This document shows, piece by piece, positions 5,663 to 30,635 of a stretch of 64,000 nt of DNA. A model generated the notes under the pieces. It had not been told where the DNA came from. It did not search any database and saw only the letters and a list, made by a program, of their open reading frames with translations. This DNA is from Dictyobacter formicarum. Its GTDB lineage: Bacteria > Chloroflexota > Ktedonobacteria > Ktedonobacterales > Ktedonobacteraceae. How positions within the stretch are numbered: position 1 is the first letter of the stretch; every line of letters begins with the position of its first letter. The translations under genes were made by a program, and so were the position numbers. The stretch covers positions 264,675 through 328,674 of the forward strand of contig NZ_BNJJ01000010.1 in assembly GCF_016587435.1 (NCBI RefSeq), in the 5' to 3' direction.

Positions 5663-7492
5663 GGCTCTCCCGCGAAGTTGATGATTCGGAATCATCCCCT
5701 CCTTGAGAGGCTTCACTAAGCGTGCTTGAGTACTCGCTTGCGCAGGATCTGGAAGCTAGCACGACCATAGGATTGTCGTTTAAGCAACTTGAGCCTCTGC
5801 ACGTGACCTTCTACTTGCCCATTGCTCCATTCGAGTGTGAGGCCAGCTTTGACAGCATCATAATCTTTCTGGAGACCTCGCGCGAAGTTTTTCAGCTCGG
5901 TTACTTCCTGCTCCTCGACTTGGGCAAGCCAAGCATCTAATCGTGCTCCTTGACGCTCCCGAAGCATAGCGGCAAAATCTTGCAGGAGAGTGAACGTCTG
6001 GGCAATGAGCGGATCGGCTTCACACAGGCGTGTCAGATAGGCATTTTGCCAATCCAGTCGTTGTTCTTCGGTAAAGGTCATCCATCTCGACACTTGGAGC
6101 GCTGTCGGTGGACGTCGCACCTGCGTATCTTTTTTCGTCGCAATAGTTTCTGGAGTTGGCTCAACGCGCTTGAACCCCCTCGGCTTCCCTTTCGTCGTGC
6201 GCAATTTCTTGATGAAACGGGTCACATTGGACATCGAAGCTGTGTATCCACGCTCCTGAAGTTCCCGAAAGAGCTCGGAGGCATTCCGGCATCCCTCGTT
6301 CCAGCGTTCGAGCAGGTAGGGCTTGAACGGTTCGAGCAGGTGGATACGGGTGCGACGCGGACATCTTCGCTCCGGTGGCTGATCCATATGGATGTAGCGC
6401 GAGACTGTCTGGCGGCTGGTTCCAACTTCATGCGCGATGATCCCCTGATCCACTTTCTTCGCATGCAGTTCATGAATTTTCCGATATCTTTCCACCTTTT
6501 CCTGATGACGTTGCAGGCTCACTTCTTCGAGCCGTTTGGTATTGCCCATAGGACTCTCCTGCAAGGGGGAAGACTTCCTCGTCGATGCTGTCAGTTCCAA
6601 CATGGTGTCTTTGAGCAGAGATTTCTTGCTGATAAAAAAACCTTCCAAGGCCTCCCCTACATTCTTTAAGATATGCCACCGATCTGCTACCTGTTGAGCA
6701 TCAGGTGCTCCCAAAGAGGCTCCTTCCGCATACGTACCGCCACGATCACGGCTGATGATCTCGACCCCCACATGTTCTTGCAACCATGTAGCGAGCGTAC
6801 TGGCTTCACGGTCAGGCAAGAGTTCAATCGGAATGTGCTTTTCCAGATCGATGAGGATCGTACCGAACTTGCGGCCCCGGCGGAAACTCCAGTCGTCGAC
6901 GCCAAGGACGCGAGGTGTTGCATGGGAGATCTCCGGCGCTGCCTGAATGAGCCGAAGCAGTGTATCTGGACTTGTGACAAGACCCATACCTGCTATGACG
7001 CGTTTCCCCGCTTCCCCACCGATGGCAAAACCGATGAGCGTGAAGACATCTGCCAGCCGCGTGGTTCGATGAGCATAGGGAGCAACCACGCTGGGAAGTC
7101 GCTCAGTGAAAATTTGGCGCGGGCAAGCAAGATTGAGGCAGAAGAAACGACGCGTATGGATTTCCAGCCGGACCTCCCAACCCATCCAGGGGAGATCGGC
7201 TACGGTGCGTACATAACGAGAATGCACATGACCCGAAAGGCTCTGGCAGACTGGACAGCGCGCTTGAGAGGCGGTGGTTGTCACCACCACCGTAATCATT
7301 TTGGGAGAAGTTTTCAAATGGGTGAGGTGTAAACATGTCGGGTCGGGCAATAGGGGAGAATGAACTTCGCTTCCCATCAGAAACTCCTCTCTTTTCCTAA
7401 CTATCCATCATCATCTATGAAGAATGTAATTGGAAGCTGGTTCTGCACGCAAGCAAGCGAGCTATATTATTCATCAACTTCGCGGGAGAGCC
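5663..7492. mobile_element. Complete ISL3-family insertion sequence
   Basis: Perfect 22-bp terminal inverted repeats begin GGCTCTCCCGCGAAGTTG (5663-5684 and complement at 7471-7492). An 8-bp target duplication, AGCATCAC, flanks the element (5655-5662 and 7493-7500). Inverted repeats starting GG-CTC and 8-bp duplications are characteristic of ISL3. The 1830-bp element carries one intact transposase. It landed about 25 bp upstream of the -35 box of the TetR gene. Intact ends and duplication suggest a recent insertion. Confidence 0.95.
5716..7377 (-). CDS. ISL3-family transposase
   Basis: 553 residues from ATG 7377 (AGAGGAG eight bases upstream). The N-terminal zinc-binding part has C41-P-V-C44 and C80/C85. 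The DDE nuclease region has VLGVDDWSFRRG (D161/D162) and SRDRGG (D211), with the final acidic residue in SNGQVEGHVQRLK near the C-terminus. An HTH segment (about 310-335, IIAHEVGTSRQTVSRYI) sits between the second and third catalytic parts. Length and order fit the longer ISL3 enzymes. It moves the element bounded at 5663 and 7492. Confidence 0.95.
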   Translation of the reverse strand: MGSEVHSPLLPDPTCLHLTHLKTSPKMITVVVTTTASQARCPVCQSLSGHVHSRYVRTVADLPWMGWEVRLEIHTRRFFCLNLACPRQIFTERLPSVVAPYAHRTTRLADVFTLIGFAIGGEAGKRVIAGMGLVTSPDTLLRLIQAAPEISHATPRVLGVDDWSFRRGRKFGTILIDLEKHIPIELLPDREASTLATWLQEHVGVEIISRDRGGTYAEGASLGAPDAQQVADRWHILKNVGEALEGFFISKKSLLKDTMLELTASTRKSSPLQESPMGNTKRLEEVSLQRHQEKVERYRKIHELHAKKVDQGIIAHEVGTSRQTVSRYIHMDQPPERRCPRRTRIHLLEPFKPYLLERWNEGCRNASELFRELQERGYTASMSNVTRFIKKLRTTKGKPRGFKRVEPTPETIATKKDTQVRRPPTALQVSRWMTFTEEQRLDWQNAYLTRLCEADPLIAQTFTLLQDFAAMLRERQGARLDAWLAQVEEQEVTELKNFARGLQKDYDAVKAGLTLEWSNGQVEGHVQRLKLLKRQSYGRASFQILRKRVLKHA

Positions 7493-25388: not shown

Positions 25389-25607
25389 ATGACCCAGCTA
25401 GCTACGACTCCCGTGCATATTCGCGTTGAGGGGCGCAGTGAAGAAGTACAACTGGCGCAGCTCGGGGTGGCGAATATGGCGGACGACCTCCAGTTGAAAG
25501 AGGCCGTGGTGCGTTACCTGGACCTACCAGCGCATGCCCTGGCCAGCCACGTGATTGTGCGAACAACCGGGGCCATCATTATCCGCCCTGAGGCGCTGTA
25601 CGGCTAA
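25389..25607 (+). CDS. 72-residue possible ubiquitin-like protein
   Basis: ATG 25389 follows GGAGGTAGATAGAG. The sequence suggests beta (HIRVEGRSEEVQLAQLGV), helix (DDLQLKEAVVRYLDL), beta (HVIVRTTGAIIIRPEALYG) and ends in Tyr-Gly. Size, strand-helix-strand order and a terminal glycine fit a beta-grasp ubiquitin-like protein. A ThiF/E1-like gene lies at the end of the same locus. I do not recognise it by sequence, so the call rests on size, pattern and context. The first Y RNA-like element starts 26 bases after its stop. Confidence 0.5.
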   Translation: MTQLATTPVHIRVEGRSEEVQLAQLGVANMADDLQLKEAVVRYLDLPAHALASHVIVRTTGAIIIRPEALYG

Positions 25608-25633: not shown

Positions 25634-25719
25634 GGTCCGGGACGTACTCCGACTGGGAGGGCTTACAAACAATTGAGGGTTGTTTCTTAGGTGCCCTTTC
25701 GACATGTATGTCCCGGGCT
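25634..25719 (+). ncRNA. Y RNA-like element 1 (minimal)
   Basis: Closing stem CCGGGACGTAC (25637-25647) pairs with GTATGTCCCGG (25706-25716). Internal loop strands are TCCGACT and CGACAT. Second stem GAGGGC/GCCCTT (25657-25662, 25693-25698). Then the conserved TTACAAAC (25663-25670) starts a 6-bp stem AAACAA/TTGTTT with a 7-base loop. There is no tRNA part. The CCGA...GAC internal loop resembles the Ro-binding site of Y RNAs. Confidence 0.7.
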
Positions 25720-25785
25720 AGTTGCCAATACGTTCAAATTAAGAGCTTGCAGCGGAACGTGAGCGCCCAGGAACAGGGCCACCAA

Positions 25786-25809
25786 GCGACCGCAAGGGTC
25801 GCACCTACG
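25786..25809 (+). repeat. Family-A hairpin between Y RNA elements 1 and 2
   Basis: Stem GCGACC/GGTCGC, loop GCAAG, tail ACCTACG. It does not overlap the Y RNA closing stems. Confidence 0.8.
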
Positions 25810-25811
25810 AT

Positions 25812-25953
25812 TGCCCTGTACTCTGATACATTGGACCTACAAACTGGTAATTCCCGCCTTTGCGGGAAGTGTTGGTTCGACTCCAGCAACCTCCACCACC
25901 AATCGGGGGTTTTAAATCCTTCGGGATTGTGTTCAATAAACTTGTACAGGGCA
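25812..25953 (+). ncRNA. Y RNA-like element 2 with tRNA-like end
   Basis: Closing stem TGCCCTGTAC (25812-25821) pairs perfectly with GTACAGGGCA (25944-25953). Internal loop TCTGATA / AAACTT. Second stem ATTGGA/TTCAAT. Conserved CTACAAAC ends at 25844. Inside lie a long variable-type arm (TTCCCGC/GCGGGAA), a T arm (GTTGG TTCGACT CCAGC, 25871-25887), the acceptor 3' strand AACCTCC (25888-25894) followed by ACCA, and then GGGGGTT (25905-25911), which can pair as the acceptor 5' strand. A small UUCG hairpin (AATCC/GGATT) stands where a D arm would be. A T-rich run follows at 25971-25984. Confidence 0.75.
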
Positions 25954-25998
25954 GTCCAGATCTTTTCATAAGCTTTTCTTTTTTAGATGCGCTATCTC

Positions 25999-26149
25999 GG
26001 CTGAGGTGCGCCCCAACGGTGTGAGCTTACAAACTTTGGATTTTTAATCCGGTTGTTACAGGTTCGAATCCTGTCGGGCCCTTTTGTGGGCCCGTAGCTC
26101 AATGGTAGAGCGCCTGTTTTCACGCTCGTACGACTTGCGCACCTCGGCT
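25999..26149 (+). ncRNA. Y RNA-like element 3 with permuted tRNA-Lys-like domain
   Basis: Closing stem CTGAGGTGCGC (26001-26011) pairs with GCGCACCTCGG (26137-26147). Internal loop CCCAACG / CGACTT. Stem GAGC/GCTC (26023-26026, 26124-26127). TTACAAAC at 26027-26034. Within: arm TTGGA-TTTTTAA-TCCGG (anticodon-like UUU), T arm ACAGG TTCGAAT CCTGT, acceptor CGGGCCC (26075-26081), six-base linker TTTTGT, acceptor GGGCCCG (26088-26094) and D arm GCTC-AATGGTA-GAGC. The tRNA 3' part precedes the 5' part, as in the tRNA-like end of YrlA-type Y RNAs. Confidence 0.85.
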
Positions 26150-26174
26150 TTGATATAGATAAAGATGCGAATGA

Positions 26175-26332
26175 TCTGTCCTGTGCTCCAATCTCAAGAG
26201 CGTACATACGGTTACCTTTCTCTTTTACCTTCTGGATTGGATGCGGGTCGAGTCCTGAACTCTGAAGCTGGTTGTAGTCATCCACAGGGATGATGCCATC
26301 AGAGCCCGCTCTTTTTACTCGCACAGGACAGA
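26175..26332 (+). ncRNA. Y RNA-like element 4
   Basis: Closing stem TCTGTCCTGTGC (26175-26186) pairs perfectly over 12 bp with GCACAGGACAGA (26321-26332). Loop strand TCCAATC, stem GAGC/GCTC (26198-26201, 26308-26311), then GTACATAC in place of TTACAAAC. The 3' loop strand TTTTTACTC departs from the others. A tRNA-like interior is only faint (GGGTCGAGTCC recalls a T arm). A T-rich stretch follows (26333-26344). Confidence 0.65.
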
Positions 26333-26367
26333 CTTTTTGTTTTGTTACCACGCTGATACCGATCGGT

Positions 26368-26508
26368 ACCGGGCGCACCCCGACTAATATGAGCTTACAA
26401 ACATTTGAGTAATCTCCGTAGGTTCGAATCCTACCAGCCTTTAAAGCTGTGGCCGAGTGGTCAAAGGCGAATGTCTTTACTATAGCTCTGTTGACTTGTA
26501 CGCCCGGT
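26368..26508 (+). ncRNA. Y RNA-like element 5 with permuted class II tRNA-like domain
   Basis: Closing stem ACCGGGCGCAC (26368-26378) pairs with GTACGCCCGGT (26498-26508; one mismatch). Internal loop CCCGACT / TTGACTT, very close to the Ro-binding strands of Y RNAs. Stem GAGCT/AGCTC. Within: ACATT/AATGT (an anticodon-type stem continuous with AAAC), variable arm GAG-TAAT-CTC, T arm GTAGG TTCGAAT CCTAC (26418-26434), acceptor CAGCCTT, one-base linker, acceptor AAAGCTG (26443-26449; one mismatch), then a class II D arm (GCCGAGTGGTCAAAGGC). It ends 77 bases before the Ro-like gene. Confidence 0.85.
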
Positions 26509-26540
26509 CTTGATCGTGTGGATATATATTGTCTCGATAA

Positions 26541-28058
<1,518 letters not shown>

Positions 28059-28110: not shown

Positions 28111-29127
28111 ATGCCTGATAAACGCAAGCAGCGAGCCACGACGGGCAAGGTAGATGCCCGCGCCCTGATCGCCCGCTTGAGCCAGCAGAGCCAGAGCCTG
28201 CTTGGGAGGGAGCTGATTGCTCCACTGCTGCCCGGCGGGCGCATCCGGACGCGTCTGAATGGCCTGGTGTATGAGTTTCGTGCTCGTGAACGCTTTCCAG
28301 GCTGGGGACGCTTTCGGCCTATCAGCGAGCGCGAGGCACAATTCATCGAGGAGGCCCTACCCTGGGAACGCGGGGCCTACCTTGAGCTTTTTCCCGCGTT
28401 GCGCATGCTGCTGCTCTGGCCCGATAGCGGTGGCCTTTTTCCCGGTACCTGGTGGGCATTGCCCTATAATGAAGGCGACGCCCGCCAGCGCTTTGGCTTG
28501 CCAATGGAACCAATGCCGGTCTTTTTGTGCGATCCCATGGCAGGTGCGGAGCGCTTCGAGCGCGTCATCGTGCGCGTAGATGGAGGCACGCGCTGGTTCG
28601 AAGGACCCGATCTGCGGGCCGACCCCCGGCATGCCGAGTGGCTGCGCGAAGCGGCCACCATGGAGTCCGAAGCGCTGCCAGAGAACCTGTTGCCGGGACT
28701 GGCGGCCTCGGAACGGTTGTCTTTACTACTCTGGCGCATCCATCAACTGGAGCTAGCGGGCAACACTCCAGCAAAAGGATTGCATCCGCCGCAGTATCGC
28801 CAGGAGCAGCGGAACTGGCTGGCCGGCCAGGCGCGTCAGCGGGTATTAGAGGAACAGCTACGCCACGCACTGAGCAAGGCTGACGCAACGCTCCATAGCT
28901 ATAGCGAGGTCAACGCCAGCGATGGCTCAGTGCGTCACCTGGTGGTCGAGTGGAGCGAGCATGGACAGCAGCGACGCTACCGCTCCCTGGTTGATTCACA
29001 GCTCACCGTCGTATCCAGCGGCATTTGTCTGAGCGGGCAGGACCATGACTTCGATCTCACCAGCCTGGTGAACGTGATGGCGGCATCCCCGTCCTGGGCA
29101 GCCTATGATGACGAGGAGGACATGTAA
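28111..29127 (+). CDS. Uncharacterised protein with E2-like GICL motif
   Basis: 338 residues, no membrane segment. The N-terminal two thirds (WWALPYNEGDARQRFGL, PVFLCDPMAG, WFEGPDLRADPRHAEWLREA) is not a family I recognise. Near the C-terminus, VVSSGICLSGQDHDFDLTSL resembles the active-site segment of ubiquitin-conjugating E2 enzymes (G-x-I-C-L), which would make Cys306 catalytic. Only about 30 residues follow it and the full E2 fold cannot be confirmed by eye. Position between a Ro-like gene and an E1-like gene (stop five bases before the next ATG) argues for one operon. Confidence 0.5.
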   Translation: MPDKRKQRATTGKVDARALIARLSQQSQSLLGRELIAPLLPGGRIRTRLNGLVYEFRARERFPGWGRFRPISEREAQFIEEALPWERGAYLELFPALRMLLLWPDSGGLFPGTWWALPYNEGDARQRFGLPMEPMPVFLCDPMAGAERFERVIVRVDGGTRWFEGPDLRADPRHAEWLREAATMESEALPENLLPGLAASERLSLLLWRIHQLELAGNTPAKGLHPPQYRQEQRNWLAGQARQRVLEEQLRHALSKADATLHSYSEVNASDGSVRHLVVEWSEHGQQRRYRSLVDSQLTVVSSGICLSGQDHDFDLTSLVNVMAASPSWAAYDDEEDM

Positions 29128-29131
29128 GAGC

Positions 29132-29782
29132 ATGACACAACAGCCCTTGAATCCTCAAAGCCCTTTTTTTCATGAGGAACGGCACGCGAACCTACAGCCG
29201 TTTGCTGGTCGATTGATTACCATCTGTGGCGCGGGTACGCTGGGTGCCAATGTAGGCGAGATGTTGGCGCGCATGGGTTTCACGCAGCTGCGTGTGATCG
29301 ATAAAGATCGTATCGAGATGCGCAACCTGTCGGGGCAACCTTATAGCCGGGCCGAGGTGGGAGCCCCCAAAGCGCGTGCGCTGGCCAACATGCTCTATCG
29401 AGCGGTCCAGACCAGGGTAGAGCCTCGGGTGGTCGAGCTGAACGCGACAAACGCGCCTGAGTTGCTCAAAGGGAGCGCGCTGGTGGTGGATGCCTTTGAT
29501 AACGCACAGGCCAGGGAGGCGGTCAGCCAGACCACGAGGGCCGCTTCTCTGCCCTGTCTGCATATTGGCTTCAGCGGTGATGGATTATATGGCAGCGGCA
29601 TCTGGGAGCCGCACTACCAGGTCCCGCAAGAGGTGCCCGGTGATCCCTGCGACTATCCCCTGACGCGTCCGCTGGCCCTGATGTTGAGCGCCCTGGCCGC
29701 GCGGGCCATCACCGACTTCTTTCGCCTCGACCGGCGGCATGATTTCGAATTGACATGGAACGATTTGAACATCCATTATTGA
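29132..29782 (+). CDS. ThiF/E1-like adenylyltransferase
   Basis: 216 residues from ATG 29132 (GAGGAGGA at 29113-29120). The Rossmann nucleotide site ICGAGTLGANVGEML, VIDKDRIEMRNLSGQPY with the Asp/Arg/Asn-Gln set, GAPKARAL, and VVDAFDNAQAREAV are the ThiF/MoeB/E1 adenylation signatures. A cysteine in GDPCDYPL could be the thioester site; the zinc-binding CxxC pairs of MoeB are absent. It would adenylate the C-terminal glycine of a ubiquitin-like protein, and the 72-residue protein ending YG upstream is the obvious candidate. It ends the operon. Confidence 0.85.
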   Translation: MTQQPLNPQSPFFHEERHANLQPFAGRLITICGAGTLGANVGEMLARMGFTQLRVIDKDRIEMRNLSGQPYSRAEVGAPKARALANMLYRAVQTRVEPRVVELNATNAPELLKGSALVVDAFDNAQAREAVSQTTRAASLPCLHIGFSGDGLYGSGIWEPHYQVPQEVPGDPCDYPLTRPLALMLSALAARAITDFFRLDRRHDFELTWNDLNIHY

Positions 29783-30083: not shown

Positions 30084-30635
30084 ATGGTTATTTCTGATGG
30101 TGTGGTGAAGACGGTGAGTTGTAGCGGCGAGCATTCTTTTAGTAAGCCGAATCAGGAGCGGATTCGGTTGTTGAAGGGATTGGGGGTTGAGGGGGATGCG
30201 CACATGGGGGAGACGGTGAAGCATCGGTCGCGGGTGGCGGTTGATCCGTCGCAGCCTAATTTGCGGCAGGTGCATTTGATCCATGCGGAGCTGCATGAGG
30301 AGTTGCAGGCGGCTGGCTTTGAGGTGTCGGCGGGGCAGATGGGTGAGAATGTGACCACGCAGGGCATCGATTTGCTGGGTCTGCCGACGGGGACGCGCTT
30401 ACATCTAGGCGATGCGGCGGTGGTTGAGGTGACGGGCCTGCGCAATCCTTGTGGGCAGTTGAACGGGTTGCAGCCCGGACTGATGGCTGCAGTCCTGGGA
30501 CGCGATGAGCAGGGGAACCTGATACGCAAGGCGGGCATCATGGGCATTGTGCTGGCTGCTGGCGAGGTGCGGCCCGGAGATCCTATTCGCGTTGAATTAC
30601 CTCCCGAGCCGCATCGGCCATTGGAGCGTGTTTAG
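30084..30635 (+). CDS. MOSC-domain protein
   Basis: 183 residues from ATG 30084 (AGGAGGTTTCGGT). MOSC features: GVEGDAHMG, VHLIHAELHEEL, AGQMGENVTTQGIDL, LHLGDAAVVEVTGLRNPCGQL with the conserved cysteine. MOSC proteins handle a molybdenum cofactor sulfur or act in metal-sulfur chemistry. A family-A hairpin begins six bases after the stop. Confidence 0.93.
   Translation: MVISDGVVKTVSCSGEHSFSKPNQERIRLLKGLGVEGDAHMGETVKHRSRVAVDPSQPNLRQVHLIHAELHEELQAAGFEVSAGQMGENVTTQGIDLLGLPTGTRLHLGDAAVVEVTGLRNPCGQLNGLQPGLMAAVLGRDEQGNLIRKAGIMGIVLAAGEVRPGDPIRVELPPEPHRPLERV

Follow-up and report, generated by a model that had tools for sequence, protein, structure and literature searches.

What do five Y RNA-like elements display when they stand in a row before a predicted Ro60 gene, and to which partners? 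Organisms as distant as bacteria and humans possess particles of Ro60 and Y RNAs, and Ro60 is among the major autoantigens in lupus, yet to our knowledge little has been established about the partners that Y RNA modules recruit. The question is raised by a stretch of 64,000 nucleotides of the Dictyobacter formicarum genome (contig NZ_BNJJ01000010.1, positions 264,675 to 328,674; hereafter the window), in which an initial annotation, made from the letters alone, had described five tandem Y RNA-like elements directly upstream of a gene for a TROVE/vWA protein (Table 1).

Table 1. Features of the array and its neighbouring genes in the window.
Feature	Position	Strand	Basis
Y1, minimal Y RNA element: closing stem, second stem and hairpin	25634..25719	+	R1, 58.5 bits
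Y2, Y RNA element with T-arm and acceptor-like hairpin	25809..25956	+	R1, 77.5 bits
Y3, Y RNA element whose tRNA-like module is complete and circularly permuted	25999..26149	+	R1, 106 bits
Y4, Y RNA element whose insert differs and is highly conserved	26175..26332	+	R1, 51.5 bits
Y5, Y RNA element that has a T-arm, a short acceptor-like hairpin and a D-arm	~26360..26516	+	R1, 91.9 bits
tRNA-like module of Y3	26036..26111	+	sequence reading, arm script, anticodon-arm shuffle test
Y3 anticodon arm, 7-nt loop TTTTTAA, then 5-nt variable loop	26036-26052	+	
Y3 T-arm	26058-26074	+	
Y3 acceptor strands, 6-nt closing loop	26075-26081 and 26088-26094	+	
Y3 D-arm	26097-26111	+	
72-aa protein, predicted ubiquitin-like (Ubl)	25389..25607	+	size, genome context, C-terminal glycine
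Predicted Ro60-fold protein, 490 aa, helical-repeat part and vWA domain with DxSxS	26586..28058	+	AlphaFold2
338-aa protein, invariant C306 in SGICLSG..FDLTSLV	28111..29127	+	
ThiF/E1-like adenylating enzyme	29132..29782	+	PF00899, 85.3 bits

All five blocks were recovered where the initial annotation had placed them, with E values of 4e-9 or better, by R1, a covariance model built on 33 units out of 11 loci; its training set includes Y2, Y3 and Y5 of the window, and Y1 and Y4 lie outside it. Elsewhere in the window R1 had no further match below E 0.78. A motif-plus-stem finder requiring both conserved strands and the stem recovered three of the five elements. Neither strand of the 64 kb showed it a further match, and 200 shuffled versions of the array region gave none; Y1 and Y4, which escape it, both carry variant 3' strands. 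The closing stems comprise 12–14 unbroken base pairs in Y1–Y4 (14 in Y1) and, in Y5, 16 positions of which one is mismatched; as had been claimed, they differ in sequence between the copies yet remain paired. Read from the sequence, the second stem is GAGC/GCTC in Y3, Y4 and Y5, the three copies for which it had been described, GGGC/GCCC in Y1 and GGAC/GTTC in Y2. The conserved TTACAAAC-like strand is likewise present in the array elements, and the element that had been called minimal is Y1, in which no tRNA-like module was found.

The common frame opens with an outer stem ending in GYRC, followed by TCTNACCGAN, NGAGC, NTACAWAC and the insert; behind the insert it continues with GCTCN, a loop ending in RACTY, and GYGC with the other strand of the outer stem. 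That covariation across the copies indicates structured RNA holds well beyond the window, the pairing being kept across 33 units of 11 loci. In these aligned units, which are 33 of the 42 collected, standard pairs fill 96.1% of cells compared with 79.2% in shuffles, the outer-stem part of this figure being biased upwards because the 42 source units were chosen partly by outer-stem pairing. Both-sided changes occur in 12 of 15 pairs (shuffled mean 8.0), a number reached by 0 of 500 shuffles, a control that is weakened by the relatedness of the units and by the partial selection on outer-stem score. Sliding the partners by 1–3 columns, a control that preserves relatedness, leaves pairing at only 23–59%, and the inner stem, free of the selection, varies on both sides in three of its five pairs. 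Altogether R1 has 51 matches in 13 array loci, 33 of them training sequences and 18 not; two weaker rows (E 0.23 and E 0.78) are left out of this count.

D. aurantiacus (L001) and D. kobayashii (L002) possess five units each, in the same order as the window and with orthologues of Y1. Their units are identical to those of the window at 88.5% (598/676, nine gapped columns) and 84.0% (569/677, 11 gapped columns) of positions, compared with 65.9% (172/261, 154 gapped columns) and 70.8% (148/209, 76 gapped columns) for the spacers, where the unit bounds of Y2–Y4 are off by at most one base and Y5 stands for its core only. The insert of Y4 is highly conserved (95 and 93% identical, respectively). 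It is hardly credible that such units are functionless debris of tRNA genes captured by recombination: many of them do bear tRNA-like arms, but their frame covaries, they are conserved above the spacers, and ARAGORN called no tRNA in the window.

The assignment as Y RNA-like is supported by the general plan and by Rfam. The end-formed stem and the conserved internal loop that mark bacterial Y RNAs are present according to both the covariation and the consensus columns, and the internal loops presumably resemble the Ro-binding site of Y RNAs. YrlA (RF02553) was the best Rfam match within the array, with 45.4 bits (E 3.6e-8) in Y3 and 19.9 bits (E 0.81) in Y5; a covariance search had been recommended, and it placed YrlA on top inside the array but below the gathering score of 69. 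No family reached its gathering cut-off in the window, and YrlA did so in none of ten further loci. The YrlA plan combines the frame with a tRNA-like module, which PMC8394870 (excerpted text) likens to the D, T and acceptor arms. As in YrlA and other bacterial Y RNAs (Salmonella, Deinococcus), a closing stem is formed from the 5' and 3' ends, a conserved internal loop follows, the module runs in the order T-arm, acceptor-like hairpin, D-arm, and the gene lies beside that of a Ro60-type protein. The array units differ in scoring below the Rfam cut-off and in numbering one to eight per locus. Moreover, several carry other inserts, and some have a module extended by an anticodon arm with its 5-nt variable loop, a feature not listed for YrlA in the excerpted text of PMC8394870.

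Three elements had been credited with tRNA-like ends. T-arms are indeed found in three of the five (Y2, Y3 and Y5), but the full tRNA-like set exists only in Y3. Here the arms stand in permuted order, as in a permuted tRNA gene, and include an anticodon arm on which the initial annotation was silent. The D, T and acceptor arms occur together in Y3 and, with a short acceptor hairpin, in Y5, whose D-arm we take to be of class II (Leu/Ser) type. The arm-finding script detected no anticodon arm in Y5 and no D-arm in Y2, and the full module with anticodon arm is absent from the other four units of the window. Of the 51 units of the 13 array loci, the script credited 32 with a T-arm, 20 with a D-arm and nine with an anticodon-like arm. 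A strict test for the latter demanded a stem with four or five of five pairs, a 7-nt loop, U33, a purine at position 37 and placement 4 or 5 nt before the T-arm; 8 of the 32 units with T-arm passed, compared with a shuffle mean of 0.59 and a maximum of 4 in 2000 rounds. Seven of these eight arms are clean (the one at L037:6570 is doubtful), three of the seven coming from close Dictyobacter relatives, namely window Y3, L001 and L002, which share the loop TTTTTAA. The other clean loops are TTGCTAA (L025), TTGATAA (L032), CTTCTAA (L033) and CTGTCAA (L037). Among 19 additional units, 1 of 14 with T-arm, in L038, also has an anticodon arm (loop CTGATAA). In all eight modules (the seven clean ones and that of L038) a 5-nt variable loop separates the anticodon arm from the T-arm, behind which come the acceptor hairpin and then the D-arm, the Ro frame sitting between D-arm and anticodon arm; the acceptor hairpin is imperfect in L001. 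One L038 unit reaches the Rfam tRNA cut-off (36.6 bits). After in-silico reversal of the permutation, ARAGORN called 13 of 20 modules tRNA; since 17 units were still called with the middle segment shuffled, these calls lend the anticodon arm no support.

The gene behind the array had been annotated as encoding a TROVE/vWA protein. Its AlphaFold2 model contains a helical-repeat ring fused to a vWA domain, and by this predicted fold the product is a Ro60, but the Pfam TROVE family (PF05731) does not match it, nor does TROVE appear among the best 25 of 35 Pfam families for 47 homologues. It differs from the known TROVE-vWA ring proteins Ro60 and Rsr in sharing only 14–17% identity with solved Ro60 chains. 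A single-sequence search of the PDB returned two TROVE chains (E 7e-4), and a profile of the family returned no PDB chain at E 0.01. Residues D303, S305, S307, T370 and D394, which we take to be those of the MIDAS, are invariant in 47 of 47 homologues. The protein is 88% identical to its counterpart in D. aurantiacus, 78% to that in D. kobayashii and 70% to that in a Ktedonobacteraceae MAG (L003). Ro60-like matches were obtained in 15 of 400 genomes of the phylum; 12 are strong. Of the rest, that of G151 is a 58-residue fragment, and those of G073 and G037 are distant, at 22–24% identity. In the MAG, four Y units are followed by two Ro60-like paralogues, which flank a separate protein of vWA type (L003:1723-6467), and in L001 a vWA gene (6544-7347) lies after the Ro60-like gene.

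The array is tied to one type of locus. The window and ten loci (L001, with the vWA gene after Ro60; L002, with genes in pieces; and L025–L032) share one arrangement: the small gene comes first, then the Y array, and after it the genes for the Ro60-like protein, the 338-aa protein and the ThiF-like enzyme. L033 is arranged differently: its small gene sits directly beside the Ro60-like gene, and its two Y units come after ThiF, on the opposite strand. L037 has a second Ro60-like copy, behind which the contig stops. Of 47 genomes of the class, 15 possess R1 units, among them 12 of 12 with a strong Ro60-like match. The remaining three (G247, G288 and G079) have no Ro60-like match. The arrays of G247 and G288 lie beside the small gene on contigs of 3.7 and 3.8 kb, so short (3.0 of the 3.7 kb and all 3.8 kb were read) that the Ro60-like gene may lie off the contig. 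G079 is the exception to the link with Ro60: one unit stands beside the small gene, ThiF and two divergent copies of the 338-aa-type Cys-protein (L040:134-4446), with no Ro60-like match in the 5.8 kb read. Five units in a row had been thought unusual; within this lineage they are not, as 16 loci hold one to eight units and 13 of the 16 hold four or more. There is one in G079, two in L025 and L033, four in L026–L032 and L037, five in the window, L001 and L002, six in L038 and eight in L039. The last, in G288, is the largest array found (L039:789-2112), and its units run away from the small gene. In L002 (4983-9146) the Ro60-like, 338-aa, ThiF and MOSC genes match in pieces suggesting frame changes, whether by assembly error or by decay. 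The window (30084-30635), L001 and L002 each have a MOSC-domain gene behind the ThiF-like gene.

These arrangements also bear on the idea that the blocks are not free RNAs and instead control the Ro60-like gene in cis, as a T-box- or riboswitch-like leader. The blocks do lie between two genes of the same strand, and there is no excess of promoter-like sites for separate transcripts. However, the placement of the units in L033 and their direction in L039 do not suit a leader, isolated frames exist elsewhere, and every unit is a closed module, so that we consider this explanation very improbable.

Seven R1 matches lie in stretches without a match to the proteins of the locus. The stray inserts of L047:3669-3856 and L045:3719-3930 match the 23S rRNA of G335 at one shared place, TAACGGTCCTAAGGTAGCG, presumably helix 69-71, and that of L046:2179-2297 matches it at the sarcin-ricin loop. 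L047, L045 and L046 were the top three of 73 units compared with 23S rRNA, with scores of 36 (0% of 4380 dinucleotide shuffles score as high), 28 (0.14%) and 27 (0.23%); the scores of 28 and 27 are individually weak because 73 units were compared and the best of 73 shuffles averages 25.3. The 23S position shared by L047 and L045 is a stronger point than the individual scores. Rfam scans around the three rRNA-like stray frames gave no credible family, and five matches to a sarcin-ricin pattern, presumed non-ribosomal, were without Y frame. A further stray frame (L044:1761-1896) has, judged by eye, a tRNA-like insert in normal, non-permuted order. Isolated Y units were seen at L041:3765-3902, L042:3481-3562 and L043:4278-4427 (78.5, 56.6 and 51.8 bits).

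The initial annotation did not mention the neighbouring genes for the small protein, the Cys-protein and the ThiF-like enzyme. The small gene adjoins Y units in 14 of the 15 Y-positive genomes of the class and belongs to the same locus in the 15th. The C-terminus of the 72-aa family reads RPEA[LIV][YF]G in nearly all members, its glycine being invariant in 12/12 and 36/36 aligned members. Neither Pfam nor NCBIfam contains a Ubl family that matches the protein (Prok_Ub included), and its weak Pfam match to VMAP-M18 (E 0.0043) is below cut-off. A beta-grasp fold received no support from hhalign in a test that was powerless, the control of ThiS against Prok_Ub having failed too; pairwise comparison gave z scores of 5.5 and 6.0 for one distant family member with one PRTRC-C protein, and about -1 for the window member. 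The ThiF/E1-like assignment is solid; the frame is open from 29105, the start in Table 1 being inferred, and the best PADLOC models are E1-E2 proteins (up to 55.4 bits). In the 338-aa protein, C306 is invariant in 39 of 39 sequences, and the motif cysteine recurs in nine of nine divergent C-termini, including the two copies of G079. The 338-aa protein has no Pfam family, and its model (pLDDT 73, pTM 0.56) places the cysteine after a helix and four strands; a fold search gave only weak OB-type matches in the N-terminal half. By eye we read its SGICL motif as an E2 active site, a resemblance that makes an E2-like partner possible. A pairwise resemblance to PRTRC-B (Prok-E2_D; z up to 4.2) was gone when 22 PRTRC-B sequences were used. 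The Ubl and E2 labels drew no support from Pfam, NCBIfam, PDB-sequence and hhalign profile tests, some of them powerless, and PADLOC matched neither the small protein nor the Cys-protein nor the Ro60-like protein.

Like PRTRC and other bacterial Ubl-E1-E2 cassettes, the locus unites a small glycine-ended protein, a ThiF-like enzyme and a Cys-protein. It differs from PRTRC in that its ThiF scores 32.2 bits against a PRTRC_ThiF (TIGR03736) cut-off of 144.75 bits, and from the four Prok_Ub loci of the phylum that were read in that these are without Y frame and Ro60-like match. The rsr-yrlBA-rtcBA RNA repair operon also combines Ro60 with Y RNAs; here the ThiF-like gene set is present instead, and RtcA and RtcB are absent among the nine window proteins scanned. 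The literature searched, with the primary Y RNA papers outside its scope, contained neither a link between Ro60 and Ubl proteins nor a Y RNA that has an anticodon arm.

In tRNA thiolation, E1-like enzymes work with small carriers that end in glycine. The small protein and ThiF-like enzyme could likewise form a Urm1/ThiS-like sulfur relay for the thiolation of RNA, in which the tRNA-like Y RNAs would be substrates or competitors. The tRNA-like modules do adjoin the two genes, but no similarity to ThiS was detected (the hhalign test having little power), and separate ThiS-family genes exist in 10 of 10 genomes tested. We regard this explanation as improbable.

The common frame, its covariation and conservation, the tie to one locus type and the permuted tRNA-like modules are established at the level of sequence. 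We favour, with a probability of roughly 0.6, the reading that tandem covarying Y-RNA-type elements dock on a predicted Ro60 ring and display five different inserts. The five elements are likely transcribed. The shared stem and internal loop would dock each of them on the Ro60-fold ring encoded just downstream, leaving the five differing inserts, one a complete permuted tRNA look-alike, to bring tRNA-recognising proteins to the ring. By analogy with YrlA, PNPase and tRNA enzymes (or RNA-cleaving toxins) may engage the inserts. The glycine-tailed protein, the ThiF/E1-like enzyme and the Cys-protein could add a ubiquitin-like conjugation or sulfur-relay step, acting on the particle or on captured material. 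The YrlA-Rsr-PNPase model counts in favour of this reading (PMC8394870, excerpted text). Against it stand G079, which keeps the unit, the small gene, ThiF and the Cys-proteins without a Ro60-like match, and the seven stray frames without locus proteins. So do the sub-threshold YrlA score, the missing TROVE and PDB-profile matches, the lack of a promoter excess and the failure of profile tests to back the Ubl and E2 labels.

Possible, if less probable, is a plain RYPER-like particle, in which Y RNAs gate Ro60 and tether PNPase for the decay of structured RNA, the genes for the small protein, the ThiF-like enzyme and the Cys-protein being mere neighbours or acting elsewhere. This needs no new biochemistry and agrees with the role described for Rsr and Y RNA in print (PMC8394870, PMC7790460). 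However, every one of the 15 Y-positive loci includes the small gene, and 12 of them also include the genes for the Cys-protein and ThiF (the contigs of the other three end or are short); G079 retains the gene set and a unit where a Ro60-like match is lacking.

The preferred reading of a displaying Ro60 ring can be extended to a sensor of RNA damage, in which the ring would bait toxins or anticodon nucleases with RNA look-alikes (whole tRNAs of different anticodons and, in the stray copies, pieces of 23S rRNA) and report or answer their capture via a dedicated ubiquitin-like tagging system. The bait is suggested by PMC7790460, whose excerpted text names competitive inhibition of an anticodon nuclease by the YrlA tRNA-like domain as a possibility. 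We consider the sensor unlikely; if true, a single bacterial locus would combine two traits that are hallmarks of eukaryotic cell biology. The locus offers a natural series of one frame with different inserts, including a full tRNA mimic, and frame and effector should therefore be separable experimentally. Counts of such systems may be too low, since the TROVE model misses this Ro60-type family. An action of the ThiF-like gene set on the particle, if real, would link Ro60 particles with ubiquitin-like modification.
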